A DNA stretch of 64,000 nucleotides from Halichondria panicea (lineage: Eukaryota; Porifera; Demospongiae; Suberitida; Halichondriidae). Location of the stretch: the NCBI RefSeq assembly GCF_963675165.1, contig NC_087387.1, positions 3,932,990 through 3,996,989 on the forward strand, in the 5' to 3' direction. A program made the translations under genes and the position numbers. Positions 7,017 to 53,900 of the stretch are shown here, piece after piece. The notes under the pieces were generated by a model that searched no databases, was not told the origin of the DNA, and saw nothing but the letters and a program-made list of their open reading frames with translations. How positions within the stretch are numbered: the first letter of the stretch is position 1; each line of letters begins with the position of its first letter.

Positions 7017-7298
7017 CCATCTTTCTTCTAATTACAGCACCACTAAAATTAATTATGATTTTCCAGTGGCGTACAAATAGAACATGAAAAACTGTAATTC
7101 CAATTTGGCGCTTAGCAATAGAACGTAGAGTACTAGTAGCTGTTTCCATGAGGCTATCATAGATCAGTTGTACGTAGCACCTCGATTAAAGGCCGCGGTA
7201 TAACTAATTACCTAAGCACCAGCAAAAGTAAAAGTTACTTGGCGCTCAATTGACTTGGCACTTCTATTAGAGTGGTGCTGTAATTAGAAGAAAGACGG
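7017..7298. mobile_element. MITE with long inverted ends (CTTTCTTCTAATTACAGC)
   Basis: The inverted ends span about 28 bp (CCATCTTTCTTCTAATTACA at the left, its complement at the right with one change) and are flanked by TA. Length 282 bp, no coding. Confidence 0.85.
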
Positions 7299-17885: not shown

Positions 17886-18503
17886 GGTGAACTGACCATT
17901 ACAGCTGGTATGGAGAGTCTGGAGAATGCTCTTTTTTTCAACACTGTCCCCGAGAGCTGGACAAACCGAGCCTACCCTTCGATGAATGGTCTCGCTGCTT
18001 GGTACGTCGATCTCGGTCAAAGAATCCGCGAATTGGATAGTTGGGTGTCAGATTTTGGCATGCCTTCATGTATCTGGCTGGCCGGGTTCTTCAATCCTCA
18101 GTCCTTCCTCACGGCTATTGTGCAATCTATGGCTCGCAAGAACGAGTGGCCTCTAGACAAAATGTGCCTACAATGTGACGTCACAAAAAAGAATCGTGAT
18201 GATTTCAGCAGCCCCCCTCGTGAAGGCTCATATGTACATGGGCTGTTTATGGAGGGAGCTCGTTGGGACACGCAAACCAGTCTGATTCAGGAGTCAAGTT
18301 TGAAAGAGCTGACACCGAAAATGCCTGTCATCTTCATTAAAGCTATCCCAATTGATAAACAAGATGTAAAAAATTTCTACCAGTGTCCCGTATATAAGAC
18401 ACGTATGAGAGGGCCAACTTACGTATGGACGTTCAACCTCAAGACCAAGGAATCTCCATCCAAGTGGGTCATTGCTGGAGTATGTCTACTCCTGAGTATC
18501 TAA
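17886..18503 (+). CDS. Terminal dynein heavy-chain exon, intact
   Basis: A 618-bp exon (205 codons plus stop) following a TTAG acceptor. It reads [44 protein letters not shown]-type motif [30 protein letters not shown] and ends [13 protein letters not shown] before TAA. This is the globular C-terminal domain of axonemal heavy chains. The exon itself is undamaged although upstream exons are broken, so it is either recently pseudogenised or still transcribed as a 3' piece. Confidence 0.85.
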
Positions 18504-23900: not shown

Positions 23901-26900
23901 AGAGTGAACGATAATTATGATTATACGCAATTAAGATGAATATGCAAATAATTATGCCAAAATACCAACACTCACATTGTCCTGACTGTTGACTTGAGCC
24001 CCCTCAAAAACCAGAGCCAACACAACACCGAGATGGCCTTCTTGAGCAGCTGCCATGAGAGGAGTGGTACCATTCTGTAAGAAAGGGGAAGCTGTTATTA
24101 TAATAGCAGTTCTTTATCTAGGACTGGAACCACTGTAGCTTTTAGCAATTTACAATTTTCACTTATATCTTTGCATGGAAAGATCTAATCTGGAAAATGA
24201 CTGCACAACTGAATTCTAATTGCTATTCTTGTGGTATGACATTTGAATGCAGGGATACAACATAGTGATTTTAAAAATTGAACTAAGCGTGACTGACTAT
24301 AAGTATAGGATATTATTAACCATGGTACTGACAGGTAGTAGAGGATATTATGGATGCACCCTCCGAGTAGGTGTGGTATATCTGGCAGCACTATAAAAGG
24401 ACCTCCCACTAGCAACAATTCAACCCACGATGCAGACTGCAAAACGAGCAAGCCAGATTTTGCAGCCATCAAAGAGCTAGTTGAGCAACACGTTTACTCC
24501 TACAGATACTCAAGAGCCTCCTTGGTCCAAGAGTTGGCCATTCGACGTCCTTTACTGGAGTTGCAAGCTCTTCTTGTGTCTAAACTACGCCCATGGACTG
24601 ACCCATGGCTTAGCCATCTTGTTGGAGAGCAGCTTCCGTGTTTCTGCTGTCGCTTTGAAGTCTTAGTACCATCAAGCATGGCTCCTTTCTCTTGCTAAAT
24701 TCCAAAAAAACAAAAAAAAAAAGCTTGAAAACTGTGCATGCCTGGGGGCTGGCTGTATGTTATTTCTCTATATACAAAATTAGCTGTTGACCAATGAGTG
24801 GTGACGTAAGTGTGGTATAATTATACGTATTAAGACTGGTAACAACAAACTATATTCTAGAGCCAACAGCGGGGAGGGAGGAGGTGTACATGGCCAACTT
24901 AATAAATAAATGTTGGGCAAATTAGTATAGTAAGTCAAGAAGTCAAGAAGTTGAAATGTGCTGTCCTGATGTGCACAAAGTAACGTGACATCCTGTCAAT
25001 TGCACGTAAGCAACTTGCAATTGATAACGTTAGCGTACTTCCAACGTATAATTATGTTTGCACTACTTGTGTTACTTTGAATGCATATATAATTATGTAC
25101 GTGTATGCATGTTAGCTAGCTTTCTGGATGTATGGGACATGTACATATTACGTAAAATGTGTAAGCTACATGAGAGAAGTCAGTGACATCAGTGACACCA
25201 TTCTGAAAAAGGGATACCAGGATAATCAGACAGTGTTCCAGTGACACTTTCTATAATTATGTCATACAGCTGATATGAACCCACCGTGTTTGGTAGGTCA
25301 ACAATGGCTCCAGCAGCGATCAAATGGTAAGCAACATCTGTCCGTCCATTGAAGCTGGCTGCCCAGAAAGCTGTCTCTCCGTCCTATTTATAGAACGTAT
25401 TATACGTAAATGATCATTACAGCATCATTTCAATGTGGTGGAACCTCCATTATAACGACCACCTCCGATAGACATGAATAATATTAGAATAACGGAACAT
25501 TATTTTTAGGAAAACACAATTATTTTGTCTCAGGTTGCTTTATTTTGAGTGCTATAATTATAGTGACGACACGTAGGATTTTAAGAACGTGTTGTAGTGA
25601 GTATAATTGTTACTTGTGTGCAGTAACAGAGCTGATTCTCATGGGGCTAACTATGCATAGATAAATGAAAGAGAGGGATAAGCAACGCCTCACGTGATGC
25701 TAGGTAAATGCAGTGTGTGGCGTCACACCCTCTGCATGGTTGGAGGCTTGTTGCACTCAAGGATGTACACACCAGCTGCTCAATTTTCTCAGAGGGGCAA
25801 TCTTTATGGATCCATTTTGAGTACACACACCCAATTTTGCTCCTTAAACGCAACTAGCCTCATCCAACGGAAGTGCTGGGCATTGCCTATTCGTTTATCT
25901 GTGGTTTTATGGAGGTTCCTTTGTACATACATACTAATAGTTAGTAGGCACTGCAGTGTTGTTTGATGGTGAGCTGGTGCCTTTTAGTCAAGAGAGTAAA
26001 TAAAGCCAATTTTGCTCCAATCGCTATACACATACAAGCCAGCCATTTATAGCATTATAGCTTGTTTTCAAGCTGTTTTGTGTTTTCCTCGGCCAATCCT
26101 AGCATATACACCGGTCAGGATCTCAGGTTCGGATTAAAACTACAAATACTTTTATCTTTTCAAGAACGGCCACCTCTCTATATACTCCGTATAACCATAG
26201 ATACACGAAAGAGAGGGATAGGCAACGCCCCAATGCTAGGTAAATGCAGTGTGTGATGTCACACCTTCTGCATAGTTGGAGACTTATTGCGCTCAAAAAA
26301 GTACACACTGCTCGATCCTTATATCTGCTTATAGTTTTCTCATACGGGGCCTAAAAGCAAAGCGATCAGGCATCATGCACATATATACACCCAACACTAT
26401 AGCTACAACTGCTATGTTAGCTTTCTTCTTTCAGCTTGATTTGTATGAAAAAACACCAAAATTGTAGGTGTACCTATCTCTGAAAGGATTTTATAACATA
26501 ATAGGTTTCACAGAATTAATTATAACTGCATGGAACAAAGCGTATTTCCCAGCTCATAATGCAGTGAAGTAGTGGCAGCAACATGGAATGTTTGTCCGAA
26601 GTCCAGTACCTCTCTTGCTCTTACTGTATATATGGTAATGTAGTTTGAAGTGCTCTAAGACACAGGTTATAGGTATTAGAAAGTGGAACACAAGTATTTT
26701 TCTCTGTCTTGTGTGATCAAAGATATGACATTTAAAGGATTGTAGAGAGCACTGACATCCCTTTTTGGTATACTACCTCTCAACAAAGACCGCTCTATAC
26801 GTAATAATACAATGCAGTGTTTATCAGTCTTTTAATGTTCATGTTTTCTGATGCTCTGATGCTCTGTATCACTTCTTCGCTCTTTGCAGTGAGGCTAAGG

Positions 26901-29900
26901 GTCAGGAGGTTGTCAATGTTCAGTTTAGCAGTCATATTTAATGTATCGAACAGGCATTAGTGTGTGGAAAGGGTCAGGAGGTTGTCAATGTTCAGTTTAG
27001 CAGTCATATTTAATGTATCGAACAGGCATTAGTGTGTGGAAAGGGTCAGGAGGTTGTCAATGTTCAGTTTAGCAGTCATAATTATTTAATGTATCGAACA
27101 GGCATTAGTGTGTGGAGTGAGTGCTTTGAGCGAAGTATTGCAAATGTATAGTATAATACACTGCACGGTGCCATATTTTAAGCATGAAGACTCTTGCATA
27201 AGTCATTTTGGCTTCAAAACGATTGTCACACTTTTTTTTCTGCTACAGCGGTGCAGACTGTCTGATACTCTTCTGATACACTAGGCAGGCCTTCATACAG
27301 AAAAAATTAACAGGGGGGGCGAACCGATTATCCATGTACGGCCGTCTAGGGGGGGTCTGGGGGCATGCCCTCCTAGGAAATTTTTGTGTTTAGACTGTCG
27401 TATATCGCATCTGGTGCATTCTTAGAAACTGTGGTGTCAGTGTTAGGATTACTATGGTTTATTAATTGTGAAATGTAATAAAAATGCAAAAATTTAATTG
27501 AACTACCTTAGTTTCAATTGCCTGCACTGAATGGTACTATGAGTTATCAGATAAAAGCCATAGCCTGAGCGACACAAGCCTTTCTAGCACACTGAATGAA
27601 AGCAGCTCTTGAATCGTCCTCTGTACTTGCAAATAGTGACTTATAGAAGAAATTGTGGACATATAGAACAGAGAGAGTAGACAAATAGCAGTTTAATTAA
27701 AGTAGCTTCGTAAAGAACTCATTATTGTAATAATTATTGTTATTATGAATATTAAGGCAGAGCTCTTTGTTTGGTTGGTGTGACACAGGCAGTGTGTCAT
27801 GGCCTATATTTTCAATACAAAATTTACGGGGGGGGGGGGGGGGGCGAGCGCCCTCTGTGCCCCCTCCCTCTATGAAGCCCTGCTAGGTATAATAAAAAGC
27901 AAGCACACGCTATTTAGCCTTCAAACGGGTTGCTGGTTGTCACCATTTTCTTGTCTGTTCCCTACAACATTTTAATTAAGCACACTTATTTTACTGGAAG
28001 TAGGCGCGTATTCCACAGAAAGTGGACGGCATTATTCGAAAAAAAATTCACAGGAGGTCGCAAAAGATGGAATGAAATGCTTAGTGAAAGTGACAAGAAG
28101 ACACAATAAAAAAAGGAAGCATCGAATTCACTTTAGCAGTCGTTTGACACTTTCTGTTGAGTTTTTCAAGGTTGAGGTTTTTATTGCCCCGGTGACTGCG
28201 CATGCAAATGATAACTTACCTCGCTGGCAATTATACTAGGAGTACGCATGCCTGCACATGGTCTGTTATGGACCTAATCGACACTTGGGGCCAAGGGAGA
28301 GTCTCCCTGATTAACCGTTGTAACTATCTTGTATTGTTCATTTATTTTATCCCTTTTTCTCTGAGAGACTAATGTGCATGTAGGTCATAATACTTTGGTC
28401 TGCTTGTTGGTGTGGTATCGCCCCATTCAGCAGCTGGTAGATCCCTTTTTCGGGAATATGCAAAGCGTGATAGAAATTACACAAATTCCCTAGTGCTTTG
28501 TGATTACCCCAAAAGTATTACTTGTTTATCAAGTGAAGGTAAGGATTATGTGTGCATGAATGTGTGTACTCTCACAAGCCGAACTTACTGAAGAAGCACC
28601 GCGGCAAGCTACACAACATAAAGCTGTTAGCTAATATTGCTAATGACACGCATGATAAACAATTTTGCATCTGGCTATTAATCACAGGGAATTTTGAAGA
28701 GTGGAGAGTGGGAAATGATCGCTCATGATTTTTAAAGATACAGCACATTCTTCATTTAAGACAAGAAAAAAAGACAAGAAAGTGACCGAGGCGCAAATGA
28801 TTTCCGAGGCCACTACCGTTTTTCCAATCCCTATATGATACAACTAACCTAGCTGATAATTAACTTGTATGGGACCAATTAGAAAGTTCACAACCTCCTA
28901 CCGGAAGTGGAAAACCTTCGTTACCAACCATGCATGCAGAGGATTTCCTTGTTGGTAACTCTAAAGTGATACGGTATACACAATAAGAGCTCTATTATAC
29001 ATCCAATTGCTCACATTGTCCTGACTGTTGACTTGAGCCCCGACAAAAACCAGTAGTTCCACAACACTGAGATGGCCTTTTTCAGAAGCTGCCATGAGAG
29101 GAGTGAAACCATTCTGTAAAAACAAGGATTATCAAATGTTGTGTCACTTCTATGACATACATCAAAGAAATTGCGAGTACTACAAATGAGTGAAGGCAGA
29201 AAAAACTCACTGAGCTGTGACCACAAGGCAATGCTTAGACTACATTACATCATATCTGATTGGCTAAAAGCAGTAGATTACATACCGTATAGCGGGTATA
29301 ATTATTTCGAGGATATAAATTCTCACGGATGGACCTCTACAAAGGATTTCGCGGAGTTTATTTTCGTGGTGGTCTGAGTTCCAGCCTTTTGGCGTATGCG
29401 CACATCAACATGCAGCTGTATACCTCCACACCGTTAGCCTCGAATCCAGGCCTAGCCTAATAGAATCAGTGAGGCAGTATGTCCTCCACCTCTAGCAGAA
29501 TGTTTGCTGTGCAGGCCATGGTCAGGGGATACCACCAGTACAAAACAATCTGGGCATAGACTTAGAGCAAGCTAGCTGGCTATACCGGCGTCCTTGTCTC
29601 TTGATTCCTTTTTTCTTTCCTCTTATTGTCGATAGGTGTGGTCAATAATACTGAACACGCCTACTATTCAATAAGATACATTTTCGTGGGTATAAATTTC
29701 GTGGTACAGGCTCAATCTGCGAACATTTATACCTTCGAAATAATTATACCCGCTATACGGTAGAAAAATAATCTACAGGAAGCGCACTTAAAGACGCAAT
29801 GAAAATGTAAATAGTTTGTTCTTTCCATGCATGCATTGCTTTTTTCCGGTTGGGCATGGGCGGGGGGGCCAGGAAGCATCGAATTTAGAGCGATTTTCAT

Positions 29901-32900
29901 TAAGCTAGATGTCGCTCAGACTTCCGTGTTTTGATGAGCTTCATCTGGGAAAAGCTTTGCTCTACCCCAATGCATTATAGCCTTTCAGGAATAAACAAAT
30001 ACTTATAGGGAATTGGAATTGACGTAGCGTAGCCTCGAGCTACTATGTGTGTACCTCAGGGCCACCGTATTTATGGCAGTCTAGCCTGCACAAATCAAAC
30101 ATAGATTACAAGATCTTGTACCAAACATGTCTGCATGGGAGAGGGAATTATATACCGTATAGCGGGTAATTTTCGTGGGGCAAAATATTCGTGGTTTTCG
30201 TGGTTAGAAGTATGACCACGAATGAAGCCCCCCATTGCCTACCTTTACCTGCAGTGCAAGCAGCTACCACGAAAATATTACGCACGAAATCTCTCAATAT
30301 TGCTGAACCACGAATATTTTGTCCCCCGAAAATTACCCGCTATACGGTACCCTGGTCATATCCTAGCAACTGCATGAAAACATTATATGTATAATTATAT
30401 CTCTCCCTTCTCTGCGGCCAGGAAATTGAGGCAAATCAAACACTCATAAGTACAATGCATGCAGCTACAGGAAACCCATGCACCCACCGTGTCTGGTAGA
30501 TAAATAATGGTTTCAGCAGTGATCAAATGGTGAGCGACATCTTTGTGTCCATTGAAGCTGGCTATCCAGAGAGCTGTCAGTCCATCCTAATAATAGTACG
30601 AATATACATAATTATAGTAACGATTCTTGCATCATTTCACAAAATTAACAAACTGACACTCAGTGTGATAAATATTTTGTATAGGCACTGCAGTTTTGCA
30701 TGTCTAATGGTGAACTTATACAGCCTCGTTTCCAACAGAAGGAAAGTCAATTTTTCTCTTCCATTCTATTAATTAAAAACGAGGCTAAACTATATACAGT
30801 AACACACCAACTGAATTTGAATAGTCACTAAATTAAAGAGGCAAACTTACACAATAATTTATTGTGTCTATATAGTTTTATAATTATAGCTGTACATCAC
30901 CGATACATTTTCTCCACGCAATTATTTTAAACTTACATGTACAATGCACAAACCAATTGCTTACTTTATTCTGACTGTTGACTTGAGCCCCCTCAGAAAC
31001 CAGTAGTTCCACAATACTGAGATGGCCTTCTTGAGCAGCTGCCATGAGAGGAGTGAAACCACCCTGAAAATGGAGTTTACCAAGATCATCACAGTTAGTA
31101 TTTGGGTGCTCATACCATTACGTATACCGTGCCTTTGCAAAAATACGCCCACCTAACTTTATATGAAGGTTTGGGGAGGGCATGGCCAACTAGCTAGAGA
31201 TAATAAACAAAAACTATCGATATGAAAGCACTGCGGGTGCTGATGCCTCGGTGGAGGTGCCGAAGCTGCTACTATACACACATTATAATAATTAGCATTA
31301 ATTAATTTTGCTGCATGCGCATGCAGGCAGAATCCAGAATCACAAGGAAACTCTAGGAGTGGGTAATGATCGACCATGATTAAAATTGTTGTTAAAAACG
31401 ATTGATGCAAAAAGTTCATTGATGACTGCATCATTCTCACAATAGCTATACAGTAGAACCTCGCTAATCCGAATAGAGCGGGACCAGACCCCATCCGAAT
31501 ACATGAAATTTCCGGATTAACTAATTGATTATGAATATCATTAACGAAGACACTTTTGTACATATATTATGATATTAGAAGGGAAGCTGCTATAGCTAGA
31601 ATAGTCTTTATCTCTCCAATACAGTCAGTCTTGTGAGCTCTCTCTTCGTTTTCTTTGCAGTGGCCATTGTCTTGAGCAGTTCATCAATAAAATTATTGCT
31701 GATTCAGCTAAGCAATTTACATCGCGCATGCGCAGTAATCCATTCTACTGACAGCCTCTCCTCTTTTTCAGTTTGCCACTTTGTCCGGATTTGCGAGGTT
31801 TCGGATTAAAGGGGTCCGGATTAGCGAGGTTCTACTGTATAGCGTTTTAGTGCAGTTCCAACAGAAGGAAAGTCAATTTTTCTCTTCCATTCTATTAATT
31901 AAAAACGAGGCTAAACTATATACAGTAACACACCAACTGAATTTGAATAGTCACTGAATTAAAGAGGCAAACTTAGACAATAATTTATCGTGTCTATATA
32001 GTTTTATAATTATAGCTGTACATCACCGATACATTTTCTCCACGCAATTATTTTAAACTACATGTACAATGCACAAACCAATTGCTTACTTTATTCTGAC
32101 TGTTGACTTGAGCCCCCTCAGAAACCAGTAGTTCCACAATACTGAGATGGCCTTCTTGAGCAGCTGCCATGAGAGGAGTGAAACCATCCTGAAAATGGAG
32201 TGTACCAAGATTATCACGGTCAGTATTCGGGTGCTCATACCATTATGTATACCGTGCCTTTGCAAAAATGCGCCCACCTAACTTTATATGAAGGTTTGGG
32301 GAGGGCATGGCCAAACTAGCTAGAGATAATAAACAAAACTATCGATATGAAAGCACTGTGGGTGCTGATGCCTCGGTGGAGGTGCCGAAGCTGCTACTAT
32401 ACACACATTATAATAATTATCATGATGCATTAATTAATTTTACTGCATGCGCATGCAGGCAGAATCCAGAATCACAAGGAAACTCTAGGAGTGGGTAATG
32501 ATCTACCATGATTAAAATTGTTGTTAAAAACGATTGATGCAAAAAGTTCATTGATAACTGCATCATTCTCACAATAGCTATACAGTAGAACCTCGCTAAT
32601 CCCGAATAGAGCGGGACCAGACCCCTCCGAATACATGAAATTTCCGGATTAACAGATGTCATTAATTGATTTGTACATGTATTATGATATTAGAAGGGAA
32701 GCTGCTATAGCTAGAATAGTCTTTATCTCTCCAATACAGTGAGTCTTGTGAGCTCTCTCTTCGTTTTCTTTGCAGTGGCCATTGTCTTGAGCAGTTCGTC
32801 AATAAAATTATTGCTGATTCAGCTAAGCAATTTACGTTGCGCATGCGCAGTAATCCATTCTACTGACAGCCTCTCCTCTTTTTCAGTTTGCCACTTTGTC

Positions 32901-35900
32901 CGGATTTGCGAGGTTTCGGATTAAAGGGGTCCGGATTAGCGAGGTTCTACTGTATAGCGTTTTAGTGCAGAGCAGTAACACTCGTTGAACAAGTTTTGCT
33001 ATACGCACTCTTCTGAAAAAGCTGCAATGGCATTCCAAGTACGCAAAACTAGGCATAACTCGAGAACGAAACATTATTTTGCAAATCTACGAATTAAATT
33101 CCATGACTAGAAGCCTATAGAAAATCTTACTTGCACTTCATTGATCCTTGAGCAGCTGTATAGCAGTCCACACAGACACACAAACACACTACTCGCTTGC
33201 GCATGCGCACCAAGGCATAAATATGGATGATTCGATCGACATTGAATGTCTGATGTCTAACTAGCTTTCAGTTACTTCCTGGTTCTTCATCAGCACTCAG
33301 ATTGGCACTAGAGCTTTAAATTCTGAATTTCATTTCTTATTATTCATAATACAAAATTCGTAATGACCAGGAACATCGTTTGGTTCAGATTCGCTTATAA
33401 TGGAGCTAGTTTTTAAGTTTATTTATCAGATTACTATCTAATACTGTGTAGCGGGTAAATTTGGCGATTAAATTTGAGCAAATCAAGGTGACGGTCGCCG
33501 AAATAAAAAATACCCTGTTTTAGCTTGATAGTCAGTGCGTCTCAGTATTACGCACGAGATCAATAATGCCATGCAGCATGCCCATGCCCGAAACATAACG
33601 AGACGTTTATTATAGCCCCAGCTAATTTAACTAGAGCACTAAAGTGCTAACCCTCGGCTGCATGACATAAATAGATGTATACAAACCATGCAGAGGAGTG
33701 TTCAGTTACACACAATAAAGAAGCAACAAACTACAATTCTACTTTTAATAGAGACCGGTAAAGGATCACCTCAGCTGCAAATGTGTAGCTCTATACCTCG
33801 AATAAAGGTCGTGTGTGCCCTGGGATTTCCCACCCCTAGCCAAAATTCCCCCCCCTGGAAATATGAAAAATTTATGATGTCATACCAAATTGTACAGCCA
33901 TTCAGATAGATCTACATGTAGCTATAATAATTATTCTACGTGTATCAGTCAAATCAGTTGAGAAAAAGCCTCTTACAAATTATATATAATTATACATACA
34001 TCGGGAGTACATACATGTACATCCAATCTAGCACATGGTATGTACCGTTCAAAAGTTCAGACAGGAGATTACATACACAAAATGCATGTATACAGTTACC
34101 CTTTGAAATTTAAACCTTACAACACTAGAGCACTAAAGTGCAAACCCTCGGCTGGTGACATGATAATAACGAAACCAGAAGAGTGATAATGCAGTGCATG
34201 TAGCATGTATATGACTAGCATACGCTAGCACAGCAACTCAAGAGCAATAAAACCATAGATTGAAAAGGAAGGGGATTGGAAACGAAAATTTTTGCGTGAA
34301 ACACTCCGCGTCATAGGGCGTGGCTAAAACTACAAAGGGATTATTTTATAATCAGCATGCTCATTACCTGTCTTGGCTGCCATACAATGTGCTGTACATA
34401 GAAATGGTGAAATTGATCACTTTTAATGTTGAATATTCTAAAAAGTAAAGAGAATATAGCTCTAAAAGGTCGACTAAGCAACGCAACCACTATCACTAAA
34501 CAGCTATAAAAGAAGGAACAGCCGTTACTATGAAGTCGTGAGAGGTCAAGGCGGCCCGTGGTGTGTCTAAAAGTATATTAAAGCAGTTTGAAGGACTATA
34601 CTGCAAACATTTATGAACAGTAAAGCTTATCCATGGCATGAAACCATTCTATATAGCACCAAGGGCGTATACAGAGAAGAGGGCATGCAACTCACTATGT
34701 ATCCTACGTACTCATCCGACTTCGTATCAGAGACCGGATATGCTAAAAATAGAATCCAGTATACGGACGTGAACAAGTGGGCGGTGTTGTTTACGGAGTT
34801 ATAATTATGGGCGTGTACATCAGAGCTGCCTAGCTAGCTAACAGTGCAGTATTATTTTAGAGAAGTGTCATGACCAGTCCTAGTCCAGCCAAGTCCAAGA
34901 CAACCCCTTCGAGCATGAAGTTACCGCAACGCTCCTTGGAGGGTGAGCCGGACCATGACTGATGACTGTTAATTATAGGATTATTATTTATTTAGGCATC
35001 CCCTCTAATTAACTAGAGGAATGCAACCTCGCTGGTTAAATAATAATTATGCATTCCTCTATATTGCTCCCCTAATTAACTACTTGGAGGTAAAGACGTG
35101 GCCTATAGCCACCAGTCATAGCCCATCGGACGAAAGTCCTACCCCCAAGGAATTGAAGCATGAACACATGTACAGATCAAGTGAGCGCTATGGAACAAAG
35201 TAAAGATTCTGGGAAGGATTGACGAATTTAATATAATAGCTAAGATGCTTTATTCATTGTAAAAAGTATGCATCCATTGTATTGTATGTATTGGATTACG
35301 GTCCACCCATAAATATACCATCATGTGAGAATGAAGTACATAAACTCTATACGTACATGCCAATGGGATATGAACTCACATTGCTCTGATTGTTGACTTG
35401 AGCCCCCATAGAAACCAGTAGTTCCACAACACTGAGATGATCTTCTTGAGCAGCTATCATGAGAGGAGTGGTACCATTCTGTGAGAAGGGGTATACCAAG
35501 ATTATCTAAACTACATTATCATAAGATTATCACAAATTCTATACGTACTTTTATTATCAGACAGTGTTAAATCTATACGTACATAAATACAGAGTAGGAT
35601 ATGAACCCACCGTGTCTGGAAGGTCAACAATGGCTCCAGCAGTGATCAAATGGTGAGCGACATCTTTGTGTCCATTGAAGCTTGCTGTCCAGAGAGCAGT
35701 CGGTCCATTCTATTAATAGTACGTAAAGTCACGTTTTAACGATCACATATCATTATTTTTGACAAAATTAATAACTGACAGACATTCAGTGTGTAACCAA
35801 TAATTTGTAGACACTGAAATGAAACAAAATTGTGTCTAGTAGCTAATGAAAGCACCGCGGGTGCTGATGCACCTCGTAGATGTATGACGAGCTATATAGG

Positions 35901-41900: not shown

Positions 41901-44900
41901 TACTTTTACTAGAGACCGGTAAAGGATCACCTCAGCTTCAAATGTGTAGCTTTACCTCGAATAAAGGTCGCGTGTAGAGCTAATTACACGGTACTTACAC
42001 AGAAAGACAGAGTGAAAGACATTATCAAGCAGAGGCTTGGTTAAGGCCGTTTCACAAATATTAGTCATAAATGAGAGTGCATTGCTCATTGTCTATTCAT
42101 TGTCATTGTGCAATGGTTATTCGAGTCCGGATAATAATTATGTCACTAAATGAAAAAAGTGCCCCAAATATATAGGAGAGCTTTAATGCTCGTCGGCACT
42201 ATATCTTTCCTATATTATACTATGAGGCATTTTTATAATGCATGTGCATTAAACAATTTCCCCAGGTATATAATGCTCGGCACTAAATCTCTCCTATAAT
42301 AATATGGATTATGTGTAATGATTGATGGCACTAAGTCTCTCCTATGATATGCTTTATGATTGATGGCACTAAGTCTCTCCTATAATGATATGGGATACGC
42401 TTAATGCTCGGCACTAAGTCTCTCCTATAATAATATGGATAATGTGTAATGATTGAGGGCACTAAATGTCTCCTATATAATAATATGGGAGGTTCTTAAT
42501 GACTGAGGGCACTAATACTCTCCTATATTACTTTAGGAAGGACCGTAGATACCATGGCAGTGTATCAATATGTGTGGGAGTGATATACCATCATGTGGGA
42601 ATGAATTAAGTACATAAACTCTATACGTACATGTCAATGGGATATGAACTCACATTGTCCTGATTGTTGACTTGAGCCCCGACAGAAACCAGTAGTTCCA
42701 CAACACTGAGATGACCTGCTTGAGAAGCTACCATGAGAGGAGTGGAACCATTCTGTGAGAAGGGGTATACCAAGATTATCTAAACTTAAGATTATCACAA
42801 ATTCTATACGTACTTTATCAGACAGTGTTAAATATATACGTACATAAATACAGAGTAGGATATGAACCCACCGTGTCTGGAAGGTCAACAATGGCTCCAG
42901 CAGTGATCAAATGGTGAGCGACATCTTTGTGTCCATTGAAGCTCGCTATCAAGAGAGCAGTCCGTCCATTCTATTAATAGTACGTAAAGTCACGTTTTAA
43001 CGATCACATATCATTATTTTTGACAAAATTAATAACTGACAGACATTCAGTGTGTAACCAATAATTTGTAGACACTGAAATGAAACAAAATTGTGTCTAG
43101 TACCGTATAGCGGGTATATTTCGAGGGTATAAATGTTCGCGGTTTTCGCAGATTGAGCCTGTACCGCAAAAATTTATGCCCACGAAAATTTATGAATAGT
43201 AGGCGTGTTCAGTATTATGGATTCGAGGCTAACGGTGTGGAGGTACAGCTGCATGTCGATGTGCGCATGCGCCAAAAGGCTGGAACTCAGACCACGAAAA
43301 TAAAATCCGCGAAATCCTTTGTAATGGTCCATCCGCGAAAATGTATACCCTCGAAATATACCCGCTATACGGTAGCTAATGAAAGCACCGCGGGTGCTGA
43401 TGCACCTCGTAGATGCTATACATAACATAAAGCTGCTAGCTATATTGTCCACACAGGTATCTATAATCATAATGTTCTTATGGTAATTTTACTGCATGCT
43501 AATCACAGTGAAACTTGAAGAGTGGGAAATAATTGACCATGGTTGATGCTAAAAAGGATGCCAGGAGTATAAAGTCTAAAATTAATGGCTGCTGCATCAA
43601 CTGGGATAAACTCCCACGCACTGGCATGCAAGCTATTGGTGGGTGTGGTTTCCTAGCATGGAAACACGACTATTAGAAGCCACGCTAAGGATAAATAGCG
43701 AAAATGTGCACTCGCGCAAATTTTTCCGGGCAGGGCATTAGGGATCCGAGCATAACAATAGATGGCATAGGGCACAAACGCAGGGCGTATATGGTAGCGG
43801 GGCTCACATACATGTATGGTATATAGGCCATTAAAAGAAGCAAATAATTATGGCGTGCAGGGCACACAGGCAGGGCATATGGCATAAGCAATAGCAATAG
43901 CAATAACAGAGCATTATGCAGGAGCACAAGTATAATGAAGCAAATGAAAATTCATTTTGCTATGCACTCCTAGAAAGCGAACTATAGGCAACTCGAGAAC
44001 CAAGCACCATTACTGGCCGTACGTCTACTATTATAATGTTATGTATACATGTATGTATGTGCTAAACATGATGTATAGAATGATAAAGGATATGTTCACA
44101 TTTTTACTGCATTTTGGGGTAACTGTGTAAGTCTATTGTATTAAGCAAAATCTACGAAGTACCCGTAATAATTATGACCTAATCACCACTCACACTGTAA
44201 CGTTCGACACCGAAGATCAAGACAATAGTACACGAGAGAATATTATACAAACATGCAACCAGAAAACATGTGAAAAAAAAATTCATAATCTAATTCAGAG
44301 GGCACAATCTCCTACTGGAAGAGGAACGCCTCGCCTTTGTTACCATCAAAAATATTTCCCACCCACACAACATAACCGAAGAACTGTCAACTCTCTATAG
44401 CCTAAGAAAGAGATACATATACCCCCATGCATGGCGGAACAAAACAAGGAGAGGAGGAAAAGCCAGAACACATGCACAACTGCCACACATGAAAATCAAT
44501 ACTGTATACACATGGCCCAAGTCCATCATATACTGCCCATGCCCGAAACATAACAAGGCATTTATTATAGCCCCAGCTAATTTAACTAGAGCACTAAAGT
44601 GCTAACCCTCGGCTGCATGACATAAATAGATGTATACAAACCATGCAGAGGAGTGTTCAGTTACACACAATAAAGAAGCAACAAACTACAATTCTACTTT
44701 TAATAGAGACCGGTAAAGGATCACCTCAGCTGCAAATGTGTAGCTCTACCTCGAATAAAGATCGCGTGTAGAGCTAATTACAAAAAGACAGAGTAAAAGA
44801 CACACTAAATCAACAATAACATTATCAAGCGGAGGCATCCGTGCATGCGTATTAATCATGGTGGTCCTTTCAACATGCATGGGTGCTGACTTGCTAAAAT

Positions 44901-47900
44901 CCATCTTTTAAATTGCCCGAGGATTGCCCGAGGGACAAAAACTTAACATTCTCAAAATTTCTGACAATGTAATCGTTGAACTGCAATGCACGCACTAACA
45001 AATTATACTCACTTTATTTTGACTGTTGAGTTGAGCTCCCTTAGAAACAAGTAGTTTCACAACACTGAGATGGCCTTCTTGAGAAGCTATCATGAGAGGA
45101 GTGAAACCATTCTGAAAAAAGGACGTAAAATATAGATGAAAAGATTGCCAATGTCTATGATTAATTGCTGTGCATGCTCTCATGAAACAGTGCAGCCTTG
45201 CAGCTCTTTCCCCACTTTTGCAGCTAGTGTTCTAGTGCAGAGCTAACTATACGAAGCAACACTATGGACAACTTTTGCAACGCACCATTGCGCACGAGGC
45301 ATAATTTAATTTATCAGTACCAAACTTTCTGGCCGTACATCTACTATTATATTATTATGTATTATGTGCTGAACATGATGTATAGAATGATAAAGATAAT
45401 CATGTTCACATTTTAACTGCAAGTCTATTGTAGCAAAATTTACGAAGTACAGTAGAACCTCGCTAATCCGGACCCCTTTAATCCGAAACCTCGCAAATCC
45501 AGACAAAATGCAAACTGAAAAAGAGGAGGGGCTGTCAGTAGAATAGACTACTGCGCATGCGCAATATGGATTGCTTTGCTGAATCAGCAATAATTTTATT
45601 AATAAACTGCTCAAGACAATGGCCACTGCAAAGAAAACGAAGAAAGAGCTCACAAGACTCGGAGAGATAAAAGACCATTCTAGCTAGCAGCTTCCCTTCT
45701 GGCCACAGTAATATCATAATACATGTATAAAAGTGTCTTCGGTAATGATATTCATAATCAATTAATGACATCCGTTAATCCGGAAATTTCATGTATTCGG
45801 ATGGGGTCTGGTCCGGCTCTATTCGGATTAGCGAGGTTCTACTGTACCCGTAATACGACCAATCACCACTCACACTGTAACGTTTGACACCCAACTTAAA
45901 ATAAGATCAAGACAATAGTGCATGAGAGAATATACGAACATGCAACCAGAAAACATGTGGAAAATATAGAAGTTCATAATCTAATTCAGAGGGCACAATC
46001 TCCTACTGGAATTAATTATTAAAGTAATAATAACTTATTGTGTGGAGGCTATCCATGCTGTAAACGCAGTGCTATATGGCAGCCAGGTGAGCAGGCTCAT
46101 GAGCCACCAACCAACAAACCGACGGACTGCTAATATACACATGGCCAGGTAGTTTGTCATCAAAAGTTCGACACAAACTCAAACTCTGCCATGAGAAAGT
46201 CACTTCTACCTAGCTAGCTGCTACCGTAGATACCATGCATGGTAGTAGAATAGACTACTGCAAATCCACGAATTAAAATCCAAGAAAACATGACTAGAAG
46301 CCTATAGAAACTCTTACTTGCACTTTATTGATCCTTGAGCAGCTGTAGCAGTCTACACAGACAGACAGACACACATGCACACAAACACACTACCGTATAC
46401 CTCGCTTGCGCATGCGCACCGAGGCATAATAACAACACTATCCAATGACCTGATTTTATGACGCTGGTCTTATTAGAGAAGCCAGTATGCGTGTACCTAC
46501 ATGTACACTCTAAATGACTTTTGTTGCCAGCAACTTAAATCGAAGTGAAGATATGTCTCTAAAGCCGGAAGAGGAGAATCCAGACAAGAAGTAGCGGAGC
46601 CATTTACACTTGAATAACATCTACATTTCATGTGTAAAAGAAAATAGTGGGTGTGGTCAAGTCAGAGTATCACTTAAACGAGCATGCTGACTATAAAAAG
46701 GCGTGCCCAGGACAGCTCCGACCGGATGCAACGGGAAAATGGCGAAAATGAAAAAATGAATTTACTTGAGTCTTGCAAAAAGACGCCCTTGACATATAAT
46801 GCACATTCTTCACATTCTTACGGTCTTCTTTTGATACGCCTTCTTCCGCGCTCTCACGAGATAGTAGACATGACATAAACTTAAAACAAAAAATGGCTGT
46901 CAAAAGTTTATTTTCAAGAAGTGTTCTCAACCTCAGAAGAAGCCTACTGGGGTCCACAGGAGCTTTGATTCGAGACTGAAGATACTAAGCAGGTCTTTGT
47001 TGATAGAATTGACAGTGCTAAGCTTTTAATTTTCTTGCTGCCAGAGGTTCATTGGCCTTGGAAAACATGAAGATTTGCAAACTGATGTTGTTGTTGAAGA
47101 AGGTAAATAGTCTAGTCTATAGTATAAAAGTAAGTAGTGTATAGTATACAGTAATGTGACTTTATCAACCTACGAGTGCTTTTTAACATTAACATTTCAT
47201 TTTACATGGATAAAGTAACGAAGTGAAGTGTTGAAAGTCTGTAGGGCCAGGGAACACCTAGTGGGTTCGGGTATCGTCCAAGCACCTCCTGAAGAACGGA
47301 AATTGATTGTACTACTATTGTAAGTTTTAAATATCGCACGGTGTTGTGGCTGTGGTGAAGTGTGGGGGACTAGTGACAAAATGGACGGGTGTTTTTTCTG
47401 TTCAATTACTAGTGGGTCATCATGCTCATAGCCACCATGACATTTGTATAATAACCTTCATACATGGAGTCATTATTATTAATAACGTTCATCTTTTCTC
47501 AGGTCGCTTTGAAAGACTACCGTCGCTTGTTGACAGGACAGTGTTCTTGGCATCAACCTCTGTATATAGAAAATGTAAGTCTTATTACTGTATCAAGCAA
47601 TAATTATATCGTTACCTCTCTGGCCTCTTTTCTGGAGGAAGACTCACTGCTAGGGGTTGGTAGTTCTATTATTCATTCCCACATTATTCCACATCCCATG
47701 TACTCGCAACTTTCATCAGGCCTACAGATGTTTATACTACTGACTCGACTGACCTGTATTTCCAAAACCTGCCTATTATTCTCACTAATGTTCCCATGAT
47801 ACCAGCATAAATCTTCCCCAAAATTATGCCAGCACTACCAACCCCTACCCGGGAGAGCTCTCACTTGTTTGCACCCCACTCTACAACTCTAAATGATAGC

Positions 47901-50900
47901 AAACATTTGTTTGATATACTGACATTAATTAATGCTGATATAAATTCTTTTTCAGAATCAATTTCGCCAAATTTCTACAATGCACAATGGCGTAGTCTCA
48001 AGTCTCAATGCCGTCTATTTATATGCAAGAAAGCAAGGAAAACTCTTTGGAAGAGTTCACTGGAGTAATGCTCACTGTAGCTAACCTGGAGCTGTATAGA
48101 CATAGCCTTTTACTGTACCTACAGACCTACCTAAGCATTATTTATTTGTCAGCCATAATCATAAATTTTTATTTTTGTCTTTAGATTCTGGTAAAGAAGA
48201 AAACCCACCAGGAATGTATTCCCCTCCCTTCTGTGTATTTTTTTAGTATTCACGGTGTGTATGAATGGGTTCTGAGCGCTTTTGCGTAAGAGAAAAAAAC
48301 AGCTCGTTACTAAGGCTTGAATGAAATTTTCGGGGTCAAAGGTCGCGTCCTGGGCAGCTCTTTTTATACTCAAAACTCGCTCCGGGATCCGGAAGTTGCT
48401 AATCCGGTAATTAAAGCCAACATGCTCGTTTAAATGATGAATAGTTAAGTACGACACATGAGATATCTTCCTCAGCGATCTGTACAAGAAGATTTATGAA
48501 GCATATACAGTAGACTCTCGTTAATCCAGTCACTCTATAGGGACAGTGCAGTTTGGCTAGAATAGCGAGGTGGCTGTATTTCAGAAAATAGCCGCGGCTA
48601 AAAACCGACCGTACCTCGAATCTAATGACTAATTTTGCAGTTTTGTCTCGATAATAACGAATCATTCTGCTCTCTATTTAAACGTAATCCAATTTTATCT
48701 GCCAAACCACACTCAAAACGTCATAATTATCTGGCCGTAATAAACGTATAAATAAAATTACATTGTAAACCTAGTTTGGGGCAGCCAGTACTGGCCTCAG
48801 TATATAGAATAGCGAGTGGCCGTATTATTTCAGAGAACCGGAATAGCGAGAGTCTACTGTACAAGCATTGATCCACTAGACTACCTAAGAACAGTCAATG
48901 CACTGAGCTAAAGCATTATTTTTCACAGTGTAGGGCTGTTGATACATAGAGTGATTCTCATCATTATCTAGTCGTCACAGCCATTCAGAGCTTCATGATG
49001 TTCGTTAATCAAGAGCTAGAACTACAGTAATAATTATAGCACATGCAGTAATGTAATTACAAAATAGAGCTCACAAGGGTTCAAAAACAAATAAAGGACG
49101 TGTATGGAGCACTTACTTGATTTTGTCCATTAACATCTGCTCCACTGTCAATGAGTTGCTGCACTATCTTGGTATGTCCTTTATAACTAGCCCAGTAGAG
49201 AGCAGTAGCACCTTCCTATAATCAGTGCAGTGTATTACTTATAGTTGGCAATTATACAGAGGGACAGAGTGAACGATACACAATTAACATAATTATGCAA
49301 ATCGGCAAAAGAATTGGAGGTTTACGATTACATTGCAATGACATGAATAAAATCAGGAGTGTTCAGTAAAGGCCAAAATAATGTTTCTGTTCCTTTTGCG
49401 TAGTACGCTGATTAGATTGTACGCAATTTTTTTCCCCAGCAAAATCATGTAAAAGTTAGAGGGTGGGATACAAAGCTAGAACAGCCAAGAAAATATGTTA
49501 TACTTATTGTCCACTACATTAAAATTTATGGCAGTAAACCTCCGAGGACGAGGGCGAAGCCCCGAGGCTAAGGATGGTTTACGTTTGCCATAAATTCGAA
49601 TGTAGTGGACAATAAGTGTTATATACCACCCACTTGAAAGAAAAGTACTTGCATGCTACCTAAGCTACCTCACCTTGGATACAACTAGCAAACAGTCTCA
49701 AAAACTATTAAAAACGAATAAAAAGCTTGTGCGTATAGCTTGAAGCCAGTGCTAAGCTTCCAGCTCTATGCACTAACTTGTCAATGTCCAAGCAGTGAGC
49801 CCCACCCATCTGTCTTGCCCATGTCAACAAGTTTCTAGCTTCTTTTTGGCTGTGTAGATCTAGTATAAAATCAGTGCGCCCTCAACGCAAGGGGGTTTAT
49901 ATGAGGAATGTGCTCCAGGCCTGGGGTTTATGGTAGTTAAACCCCACCCAGTTGCTATGATACAGACCCCAAGTGGGGAATATAAATTATGTCTTTAATT
50001 CAGTTTTCCTGCAGGTATATAGCTATAGGAGTGGAGGCTTGCCTAAAAAGAATGTGTACAAAAAGTTAAGGGAGTATGGAATTCCTTCTACAGTAACAAA
50101 CGAGTTTTTGGCTGACATAATTATTATGCCTCGAGGCGTAGCCGCAAGAGGGATACGGTAAAGCTGACTGCAGCGTGTGACAAATAGTTTGTACATAATT
50201 GTGTACATTAATTATAGGCACCGAAAAAATCATGTCTAGTATGAAAAAAGGATAGCTATAATTATAAATGGTTTGTATACTTATTCAGCCCCAAAGCGAT
50301 ACCGTAACGATATACACAAATACATTTAAGAGCCCTACATACATTGCACAAACCAATTGCTCACTTTATTCTGGCTGTTGACTTGAGCCCTCACAGAAAC
50401 CAGTAGTTCCACAACACTGAGATGGCCTTTTTGAGCAGCTACCATGAGAGGAGTGAAACCATCCTGTGAGAAAAGAATATCACGGACAGTGTTTCACTAT
50501 AATTATGGTACATGGATATTCAGTTAATAGGATATGAACCCACCACCGTCTCTGGTAGGTCAACAATGGCTCCAGCAGTGATCAAATGGTGAGCGACATC
50601 TTTGTGTCCATTGAAGCTGGCTGCCCAGAGAGCAGTCTCTCCGTCCTATTAATAATTATAGTACTAGTTAACAATCGCGCATACCGTACATGTATAAGAG
50701 AGCGAATATTTCGAGGCGCTTAATTTCTGCTATGTTCGAGGGATAGCAATCCTCCACGAAAATTAGGTCCACGAAATACTGACAGACGCGACATCTTTGC
50801 ATGACCAAAATAGCGTGAATTTACGCTTTTGGAGACACTTTCACACAAAAACCCCGGAAAAAATCGTGCTACGTATAATTATATGCATGGTATAATTATC

Positions 50901-53900
50901 ATCCACACAAAAGTAAGCAACACAGTCATGCATAATTATGCAGCGTGTGACAATAGCTGTTTGCAGGCACTGCAGTATTGTCTAATGGTTAATAATTATA
51001 ATTATGACACCTACTGAATTTGAACACAGGTATAGAGCGCTTGTTAAAGTGGACAAAGTCGAATTGTCAGATGCTCCACTGACAATGAGTTTCTATCTTG
51101 AGAAGGCCTTTACGCATGGAAGTATAATAATAGGGAGCAATAATACAACCCCTGAATAGTGGGCGTGGGCTACCTATGACTCAGTTCTCAACTAGAGCAT
51201 TGAAGTGCTAACCCTCGGCTGTTGACACGAATAAATAAAACCAGAGGAGTGTTTAGTTATAGAAGCAACAAACTACAATTCTACTTTTTTGATAGAGAGA
51301 TCTACCTCGACAGGGTTTCATCTAGGTTTTGGGGGGGGGGGAAGTTCACCCCCCCCCCCTGCTCAAGTACCCTCGCGAAAATAAGCCCATCTTGAATAAA
51401 CTTGATTTGATTATACGCCCACCCAGAATAAAGAGTGTGCATGCGCAGTTATAATGCTAAATGCCACATGTTTAGTATATGTTCGCGGTACACGCTTAAT
51501 CCGCGAAAACCACGAACATTTATACCCTCAAAATTTACCCGCTATACGGTATACTCATGCATTCATTGTTGTTGTCAATGAAATGTCACACTAATATATA
51601 CTATACTATATATGACACTATAATTATTATATAATGTATTGAAATGAAAATACAATTTAAGGATTGTCATAGAGCTAAGTGTAAGCCTCGATTTGAAGCC
51701 GCAGGTGGGCGCATATTTGAGTGAAACTCACTGCTAGCGATTTAACGTAAGTCTAAATTTTTTGCAGAAAAGGGTGGGCGTATTTTCGCGAGGGTACGGT
51801 ATCTATACACTCTAAATGACTTACATTGTTCTGACTGTTCACTTGAGCCCCCACAGAAACCATGTGGGGATGAGCGCGCATGCGCATTGCATCCACAGGA
51901 ATAATTAAAGGGTGTGTCCAAAGAGATCAAGTTCACAATGGCTACTATAGCTAGCAGTTTTAACAGATCTTTTCTGACTCTTGTAGCTAACAAAAAGCTA
52001 GCGCTTTAATGCAAGGCTAACTCACATGTGTTGAATAGAAAGTTTGCGCAAACAGATGATGCTATGAAAGATTCTGAAGAGACTGCAACAGTCTTCAATG
52101 TGAGTCAAACTAGCCATAACTCGAGAAAGAAGCTTTAGTTTGCTCATCCACGAATCAAAATCCAAGAGAACGTGCATGACTAGAAGCCTATAGAAACTGT
52201 TAGTTTTCGTCGCATTGCAACCGTTGAGCAGTTACAGCTGGAATACACACACATACACAGACACAGACACAGTCAGCTTTACTTGTACCCTCGTGCGGCT
52301 ACGCCTCAAGGCATAATTAATTATTATTAGCCTAGTTTTTAGTTTAAACGTTGTTTTGCAGGGGGGGGTCAAATTTATTTTTGTCAATTTTGCTCAGATA
52401 AGCAGAGATAAGTCTCAATGCCCTCGAGAACAAGCTGCTCATGATATCGAGTCTAGCACAAGAGCAAGACTTTTGATTGTATCTCTGCTTTAGAGCAAAA
52501 TTGGCGAAAATATAATTTAATCCCCCCCCCTGCAAATAACGTTTTAAACTAACAGACACAAAAAACTAGGATTGAAATAGTCTGCAAGAGAGTTTAAGAA
52601 AACTTAACATTCTCTCGTTAATTATACTATGCACAAATAAATTGAGCCCCTTAGAAACAAGTAGTTTCACAACACTGAGATGGTCTTTTTGAGAAGCTAT
52701 CATAAGAGGGTTAGTGCCATTCTGAAAAAAGGACGTAAAATAATTATAGATAACTGCATAATTTTCGAGGCGCTTAATTTTTGCTGTTTTCAAGGGTTAG
52801 CAATCCTACACGAATACTTCGCTAGTCAAGAGAGTCATTGACAGATGGTTTTAAAACGAAACAACATTGCATGTGTCTAGTTTGAAATGGACGGCTATAA
52901 ATAATTATAACTACAGCACTGAGGTGCTAACCCTCGGGTGTTCACATGAATAATAAAGATCTATTAACTGAAAGAGTGTTAATTATAACTAAGCAGCAAG
53001 TAACAGGAGCTGTAGAGACATGCGGAAACTTTTGAGAACAGAGTTTTAGCAGTCATGCATGACTAGGATCACAGCAAAAAAAATCTGGAGTCTCAGAAAT
53101 ATGGCTCCTGTGAGGGAGGCTCATTTAATTATTAAAGAAGAACATCACCTCAGCCAAAAAAGCAAATTAAGGCCGCGTGTTGCTTGTAAGCCCTGCAGCC
53201 AAGTTCAAGCTTCTTAGCTTTTATGTGATGCTTTAACATCAAAATGTGCAACAACAAAAACTAGTTGTGTGAAGGCTATCCATGCTGTAAACGAACCACT
53301 ATGGCATCCAGGTAAGCAGACTCAGACAAATAATGCAACCCCGCTGGTTAAATAATAATTAGGCATTTCTAATAATTATAATTATTGCTCCCCTAATTAA
53401 GTAATTGGGGGTAAAGACGTGGCCTAGCCACCAGTCATAGCCCATCGGACGAAAGTCCTACTCCCAAGGAATTGAAGCATGAACACATCAAGTGAGCGCT
53501 ATGGCACGAAGTAAAGATGCTGGGGAGGATTGACGAATTGTCCAACCCCTGCATTAGCACGTATGGCAAGCCATGTGGTTCAAAAATAGAAAGCACAAAA
53601 CGTACTGTTATTATGCCTAAAAACGTACGTGTTTTGGCTATAAACGTACGTGTTTCATTATACCGCTACGTCTTCCTGCAACGTAAGGTGTTTTATTATA
53701 AACGTACGTGTTTCATTATAAAGGTACGTGTCAGGTTATATCTAGCCTCGAATCCAGGCCGATATTTTAATCGGCCTGGTCTCGAGGCTAGGTTATATCT
53801 GAAACACCTAGCTAGTGACAGAGTAGCCTCGATTCAAGGCCGCCTGGAATCGAGGCTAGTGACAGAGAGACTTGCACAAAAAGCTAAAATGAAACACGTA

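Follow-up and report, generated by a model that had tools for sequence, protein, structure and literature searches.

Recurrent four-base-pair insertion at ATAT and a genome-wide surplus of ATAATTAT in the sponge Halichondria panicea

The stretch of DNA analysed here, which we call the window, comprises 64 kb of the demosponge Halichondria panicea (contig NC_087387.1, positions 3,932,990 to 3,996,989), whose genome amounts to 131,455,214 bases in 39 contigs. The octamer ATAATTAT is greatly over-represented both in the window and in the genome as a whole, and in comparisons of duplicated copies it recurrently stands in the place of ATAT, from which it differs by four base pairs. The pattern is real: it is neither chance nor local, nor is it due to AT content. 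We suggest, at a probability of roughly 45%, that a cut-and-paste element of the Tc1/mariner/IS630 type, with ends in A or AT and a strict ATAT target, leaves ATAATTAT behind as a scar when it is excised.

Excess of ATAATTAT in the window and in the genome

The window holds 99 copies of ATAATTAT, against a mean of 3.33 and a largest value of 9 in 100 dinucleotide-preserving shuffles. Among all 8-mers of the window it has the highest standardised excess over an order-1 model (198 occurrences on two strands, that is 99 sites, for 6.6 expected), a surplus of about 30-fold. Genome-wide it was counted 100,191 times, 17 times the figure for its reversed word TATTAATA, which served as a control (5,899). 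A reading made from the letters of the window alone, hereafter the sequence-only reading, had called ATAATTAT visibly abundant across the window, and the excess is thus borne out there and in the genome. For this word the controls that inform are the order-1 model, the shuffles and the reversed word; a maximal-order Markov test assigns the excess to its own sub-words, and ATAATTAT there falls outside the top 15 8-mers.

The hexamer TAATTA occurs 193,188 times in the genome, against 89,007 for its reversed word. Subtraction of the 100,191 copies of ATAATTAT leaves about 93,000 TAATTA outside A..T flanks, which is close to the reversed control, so that nearly all of the TAATTA surplus lies in A..T flanks. 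The density of ATAATTAT per kb is 1.55 in the window, 1.53 in other pieces of the duplicated region of chromosome C11 described below and 0.43 at the transposase loci fetched by the time of that count. A depletion of ATAT by conversion appeared in the window (782 for 917 expected) but was gone in a larger set (4404 for 4386), and the idea was dropped. Word searches of the literature for the motif, for footprints and for palindromic insertions returned titles and abstract openings in which the pattern is not described; judged on these, the sole match containing ATAATTAT itself was a grapevine gene-family study.

Duplicated copies with and without the insertion

The window sits in a cluster of local duplications (C11:3857391-4331545, which takes in 26-64 kb of the window) of about 470 kb, mostly in the same orientation; among the best candidates, the longest copies of a 1.5-kb query are 94-97% identical. 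The sequence-only reading had listed eight places at which ATAT in one copy faces ATAATTAT in another. All eight proved to be real when read directly in the sequence, and the ATAT/ATAATTAT gaps there were also recovered by a self-BLAST of the window. The sites are as follows (window coordinates, no strand assigned):

27078-27085: ATAATTAT in unit 3 of a 72-bp minisatellite (array 26897-27116), with ATAT in units 1 and 2
29298-29305: ATAATTAT in the left inverted repeat of a TA-flanked miniature inverted-repeat transposable element (MITE), 29283-29762
29740-29747: ATAATTAT in the right inverted repeat of the MITE 29283-29762, symmetrical to the left one
43116-43119: ATAT at the homologous place, left end of the MITE copy 43101-43374
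43356-43359: ATAT at the homologous place, right end of the MITE copy 43101-43374
37064-37071: ATAATTAT, with an ATAT paralog at 40880-40883
52740-52747: ATAATTAT, with an ATAT paralog at 40880-40883
40880-40883: ATAT, insertion-free allele, read in the sequence
38593-38600: ATAATTAT, with an ATAT paralog at 39099-39102
39099-39102: ATAT, insertion-free allele, read in the sequence
50875-50882: ATAATTAT in one of 10 matched copies, the other nine having ATAT
40003-40006: ATAT, insertion-free allele, read in the sequence, counterpart of 50875-50882
53372-53385: doublet ATAATTATAATTAT, which includes ATAATTAT at 53378-53385
58391-58400: paralog of the doublet 53372-53385, a single ATAATTAT continuing into ATAT at 58397-58400
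2116-63827: span of all 99 ATAATTAT sites of the window

Among pairs within the window of at least 80% identity, 10 of 33 4-bp gaps are ATAT/ATAATTAT, a count that is uncollapsed for shared ancestry. For a larger sample, 17 further 10-kb pieces of C11 were added to the window to give a set of 234 kb, and gaps of up to 12 bp, bordered to left and right by ten identical columns, were tabulated from copies that share 88% identity or more. The table holds 466 distinct contexts, 61 of them of 4 bp, and in 13 of these 61 the two states are ATAT and ATAATTAT. Compared by their 11-bp flanks, 13 of 406 comparable ATAT sites have a ATAATTAT allele in a paralog. These are 3.2% of the sites, beside a pairwise mismatch of 3.4% per base, although the two measures are not strictly comparable.

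Twenty-five alleles at ATAT are longer by four bases: 19 contain AATT (13 exactly, six in a shifted register), one is a tandem duplication of ATAT, and five are single other forms. Length variants of 2 bp are common at ATAT (44 AT alleles and 12 ATATAT alleles). The 6-bp insertions, one G run being dropped, include TATAAT before TAT in five of 18 cases, which resemble compound forms of the AATT insertion. A case outside C11 comes from a Tc1-like element of which one copy lies on chromosome C6 and another on C17; the copies are 95% identical, have a TA target duplication and carry the repeat CAGGGTTTTGCAG, and one of the 13 gaps between them is exactly AATT at ATAT.

Polarity of the change

The MITE of the list could be aligned in 22 copies, namely the two in the window (29283-29762 and 43101-43374) and 20 from the genome. 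AATT is found in three of the 22, all from the C11 duplications and of one lineage, which have it at both ends in mirror positions; the remaining copies mostly have ATAT at that place, and a few have other small changes. Across the 13 variable sites the ATAT allele is in the majority at six, in the minority at two and tied at five. Given that AATT is the minority state in the MITE alignment and that ATAT is the majority at six of 13 sites, AATT at ATAT is mainly an insertion. This disfavours recurrent deletion between AT repeats, one of three causes that the sequence-only reading had considered. The minisatellite, in which one of three otherwise near-identical units carries the longer form, suggests a recent insertion.

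Sequence context and decay of the sites

Depending on the register chosen, the step from ATAT to ATAATTAT can be written as an insertion of AATT, TAAT or ATTA. In the TAAT register it reads A-TA-AT-TA-T, a TA duplicated around a self-complementary AT. The flanks of the 99 sites in the window share no motif. The one bias seen is that G is disfavoured at position -1, and by symmetry C at +1 (6.7%, against 16.5% at ATAT sites, the contexts being partly dependent).

Once in place, ATAATTAT decays about like its surroundings and is not visibly conserved. Grouped by site family, it varies in 14 of 59 families, with 23 substituted columns; at ten flanking offsets used for comparison, 14-24 of 61-68 families vary, with 21-38 substituted columns. 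A pairwise count had seemed to indicate conservation of the motif (0.9% substitutions, against 1.7-4.0% in the flanks), but the difference was mostly gone by site family. One-mismatch neighbours of ATAATTAT are mildly enriched (transitions 1.8-fold, transversions 2.3-fold; ten control words gave 0.75-1.58 and 0.65-2.05), and an attempt to date the sites from these neighbours was dropped for its uncertain background.

An excision model and its predictions

Among mechanisms for the pattern, excision scarring of the Tc1/IS630 type is the most economical, at the probability given above. An element of the Tc1/mariner/IS630 type would insert at the TA of the palindrome A-TA-T and duplicate it, and on its excision the dinucleotide AT would stay between both TAs. 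With a 2-nt stagger and an inverted repeat beginning with AT, the 3' overhangs (5'-AT) would pair with each other and simple ligation would always give TA-AT-TA; alternatively, a 1-nt stagger with terminal A...T, followed by fill-in, would lead to the same product. The parts of the model that have evidence behind them are that the change is mostly an insertion, that it is readable as a TA duplication with a self-complementary pair in the middle, that the surplus is restricted to ATAT, and that the change keeps reappearing throughout the genome and, in closely similar copies, at positions that differ. The remaining parts would be a cut made by a transposase, an AT derived from the ends of the element, and an element that is low-copy or now lost. 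Two features of a footprint are present: TA stands on both sides of the remnant, in the one of the three registers that shows it so, and the longer form is a derived insertion at a previously intact target in three of 22 MITE copies and at the six of 13 sites with an ATAT majority.

For the IS630/Tc1-type element ISY100, the published account (PMC2170065) describes cutting on plasmids exactly at the 3' ends and almost always 2 nt inside the 5' ends, and self-ligation of the purified emptied donor to the predicted TATATA. By analogy, an element with a repeat beginning AT would give TAATTA.

If scars are joined by the pairing of 2-nt overhangs, words of the form TA-xy-TA with self-complementary xy are to be expected. 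In the fetched DNA, relative to the order-1 expectation, the 16 TAxyTA words show clear enrichment only for the four with self-complementary xy (TAATTA 3.85, TACGTA 2.98, TATATA 2.08 and TAGCTA 1.86), the other twelve lying between 0.60 and 1.15; palindromic hexamers of other forms than XYxyXY, 48 in number, reach a median of 1.02. The 4-bp insertions of C11 that are readable as TA to TAxyTA have self-complementary xy in 22 of 22 cases (AT 13, TA 7, GC 1, CG 1), with the reservation that slippage may lie behind some TA cases and that a CTAG duplication coincides in part with the GC case. Of all palindromic hexamers in the fetched DNA, CCGCGG stands highest, at 5.6 times the order-1 expectation.

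Several results weigh against excision scarring. Other palindromes are enriched to about the level of TACGTA or beyond it (CCGCGG 5.57, TCCGGA 2.94, CGTACG 2.90, GCATGC 2.53), for which reason the test on TAxyTA words is suggestive and supports the footprint idea, but not cleanly. Variant scars are rare at ATAT, where ATAATAT is absent and ATACGTAT, ATAACCAT and ATAAATTAT occur once each. Palindromic 4-bp insertions are also found at CA, AA, AG and GG, where TA-targeting elements do not explain them. The donor was not found at the loci searched: 28 transposase loci, only part of the genome's transposase families, yielded 16 inverted repeats with a usable TA boundary, of which 12 begin with CA, three with CT and one with TT, and none with A or AT. 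Scans of about 300 kb returned no convincing element of the form ATA[A..T]TAT or ATAT[..]ATAT, the 26 and 8 hits being rejected because they were nested, belonged to known MITEs or consisted of repeats that run past ATA or ATAT. Finally, of the 1,656 sites with ATAT or ATAATTAT that the C11 pieces and the transposase loci contain, none is occupied by an element-like insertion of 30-8000 bp; that scan gave 306 rows, 257 of them assigned automatically to a local repeat of the flank and 49 by eye to a 45-50-bp minisatellite or to local repeats. An element present in tens of copies in 131 Mb would not be expected even once in some 300-340 kb, so the empty scans do not refute the model. The footprint of a TA-targeting transposon, as the sequence-only reading had proposed, is the best fit of its three causes in view of the TA duplication, the strictly palindromic target and the TAxyTA enrichment.

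Transposases and short elements in the genome

Candidate transposases were sought by profile searches of the H. panicea genome with PF03184 (pogo type), PF13358 (Tc1/IS630 type) and PF01359 (mariner). Tc1/IS630-type DDE_3 transposases gave 96 matches, among which open frames of 300-390 residues are common, and pogo-type DDE_1 gave 63; the search with PF01359 was empty, but its control was equally empty, so that the absence of mariner does not follow. Loci L055 and L058, which have repeats without a clean TA duplication, were left out of the 16 above. At L058 the outermost matched base is A (AGGCCACTCC, which begins AGGCC), but the location is not ATAT.

Further candidates were set aside. Among weak matches of 13 of 18 bases, the two beginning with AT were a CA-rich simple repeat at L051 and, at L058, a repeat that starts inside the transposase frame. 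The inverted repeat at 7029-7286, first read as TA-ATTACAG, extends further outward. An inverted repeat bordered by ATAT at either end, GGCATGTTGC...GCAACATGCC, is present in three duplicated copies, at L041 (6209-6539), L042 (6256-6626) and L043 (4101-4413); the ATAT there is probably no target duplication, since the match continues past it.

Short elements were also seen in the window. The MITE family of 29283-29762 and 43101-43374 has a TA target duplication, the repeat CCGTATAGCGGGTATATTTCGAGG and at least 67 matches genome-wide. The elements at 31447-31841, 32579-32956, 45448-45846 and 48506-48861 have ends TA-CAGTAGAACCTCGC or TA-CAGTAGACTCTCG, which are similar to the repeats seen at L021 and L023, two loci of the pogo type.

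Palindromic insertions at other sequences and explanations without a donor

The change at ATAT is accompanied by a second class of insertion. When two C runs are dropped, 43 of 59 4-bp insertions in C11 can be read as a palindrome in one register or more, where 9.9% would be expected if inserts at these contexts were random; the share was judged against such random inserts, not against another genome. With the ATAATTAT class removed, 30 of 46 are still palindromic tetramers, nearly all of which follow the rule XY to XY-rc(XY)-XY, where rc is the reverse complement: CATGCA from CA, which is the commonest, AATTAA from AA, and likewise AGCTAG, GGCCGG, TCGATC and TATATA. Outside C11, in 56 loci and pairs of at least 80% identity, palindromes make up seven of 13 4-bp insertions, with CATG, AATT, ACGT and a TAAT case among them. 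Insertions of 8 bp (0 of 31) and of 10 bp (0 of 22) are never palindromic. In the MITE copies L011, L014 and L016, insertions of TAGC, TATA or AGCT lie close together in one stretch, a small hot spot. The claim of the sequence-only reading that the same change recurs wherever recent duplicates can be compared therefore holds for the places it listed but is too strong as a generalisation, other palindromic 4-bp insertions being jointly commoner (30 against 13).

TA-AT-TA breaks the rule of the second class, and a strict 4-bp target and a surplus of thirty-fold are peculiar to it; we therefore treat it as the product of a separate process, a shared origin of the two classes being the rival view. 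A broader account can be offered tentatively, and with less confidence than excision scarring: an undescribed germline process might cut self-complementary steps and seal them with four self-complementary base pairs, having left some 100,000 ATAATTAT scars with no resident mobile element. ATAT would then turn into ATAATTAT at a rate that may come near that of point substitution per base. On the same tentative footing, other steps would in that account gain CATG, TGCA, TATA, AGCT or ACGT.

Of the specific mechanisms, an element-free staggered break is ranked next after excision scarring, though we regard it as rather unlikely. A sequence-specific nuclease, for instance a domesticated transposase, an activity of meiosis or something like a topoisomerase, would make a 2-nt staggered break at A^TA^T, and fill-in, addition of one untemplated A at each end and joining would give ATA-A-T-TAT. 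Such a break needs no donor, and it would explain why the target is strict, why TA is doubled around a central A.T and why no ATAT site examined is occupied. Untemplated A should however produce XY-AT-XY elsewhere, and beyond TA only GC-AT-GC (six) and AT-AT-AT (four) were seen, the former also readable as CATG insertions and the latter as slippage. No nuclease of this kind came to light, none having been searched for.

Less probable again is a general repair habit in which staggered breaks receive short self-complementary tetramers, through the opening of hairpins or a two-base copy-back; ATAT would often be broken, and AATT there would for that reason be its most frequent product. The high palindromic shares given above, in C11 with and without the ATAATTAT class and outside C11, speak for such a habit, as does the occurrence of XY-rc(XY)-XY at CA/TG, TA, AA, AG, GG and TC. 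Its rule, however, predicts TATATA and not TA-AT-TA. ATAATTAT is about 30-fold enriched in the window when CATGCA is enriched 2.4-fold, and it requires a target of 4 bp. P-nucleotide and template-switch insertions are short self-complementary additions; they are like the XY-rc(XY)-XY class, and the TA-AT-TA class does not fit them. Template-switch repair, another of the three causes put forward by the sequence-only reading, may account for the second class and does not fit the first.

It is very improbable that short germline elements are excised in somatic development in the manner of ciliate internal eliminated sequences, the assembly showing the scars only. Such a process would account for very many scars and no occupied site, but nothing specific points to it, and developmental excision of that kind is reported to be precise, while reading frames would be shifted by a remnant of 4 bp.

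Three further explanations deserve next to no credence. TAATTA is a familiar homeodomain core, and selection or binding-site turnover might favour it; the excess is however confined to ATAATTAT, the sites show no clear conservation, with 23 substituted columns where the flanking offsets have 21-38, and exact 4-bp insertions arise inside transposons and a minisatellite. An assembly or base-calling artefact, or chance in AT-rich DNA, might be thought of for a word that is short and made of A and T only, yet such a cause can scarcely be reconciled with the 17-fold excess over the reversed control genome-wide or with alleles common to related duplicates; both alleles occur within identical 11-bp flanks, so the call is not set by the sequence close by. 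The common 2-bp length variants at ATAT would suit slippage, or deletion between short repeats of AT, but such events yield AT or ATATAT and not AATT, and they are hard to credit given the insertion polarity at six of the eight sites with a majority and in the MITE family; AATT is no copy of ATAT, and the tandem form ATATATAT is one allele, against 13 of ATAATTAT.

Comparison with known systems and implications

The octamer can be set beside TACATGTA, which we take to be the canonical Tc1 footprint. In both, TA is duplicated around a palindrome, but the latter is a 6-bp insertion, and a single event from TA to TACATGTA was caught between copies, against 13 of 4 bp. TACATGTA occurs 48,206 times genome-wide, and its reversed word ATGTACAT, also a palindrome, is common too (21,338). 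Paramecium internal eliminated sequences have TA boundaries. They are genome-wide, with tens of thousands of sites, and are removed by domesticated transposases (PMC6143343); the likeness to ATAATTAT ends with their precise excision, nuclear dimorphism and lack of a 4-bp remnant. With Tc1/mariner/IS630 elements, as represented by ISY100 (PMC2170065), the pattern shares a TA target and its duplication, and would share a 2-nt staggered 5' cut and a donor that ligates to TA-xy-TA; it is unlike ISY100 in having AT for xy, a target confined to ATAT and about 100,000 scars, and in that no donor was found in the loci and scans described above.

Apart from these features, the window contains an open frame at 17886-18503 for the C-terminal domain of an axonemal dynein heavy chain, the nearest solved chains being DNAH17 and DNAH9, both of them animal dyneins.

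If the ATAATTAT sites are excision scars, one unrecognised family of elements would have marked the genome of H. panicea up to about 100,000 times, far beyond its visible copies, and the sites would form a countable record of past transposition. If no element was involved, a sequence-specific break-and-fill process in the germline would be a new kind of indel signature. Under either reading, ATAT/ATAATTAT indels would provide a ready marker.

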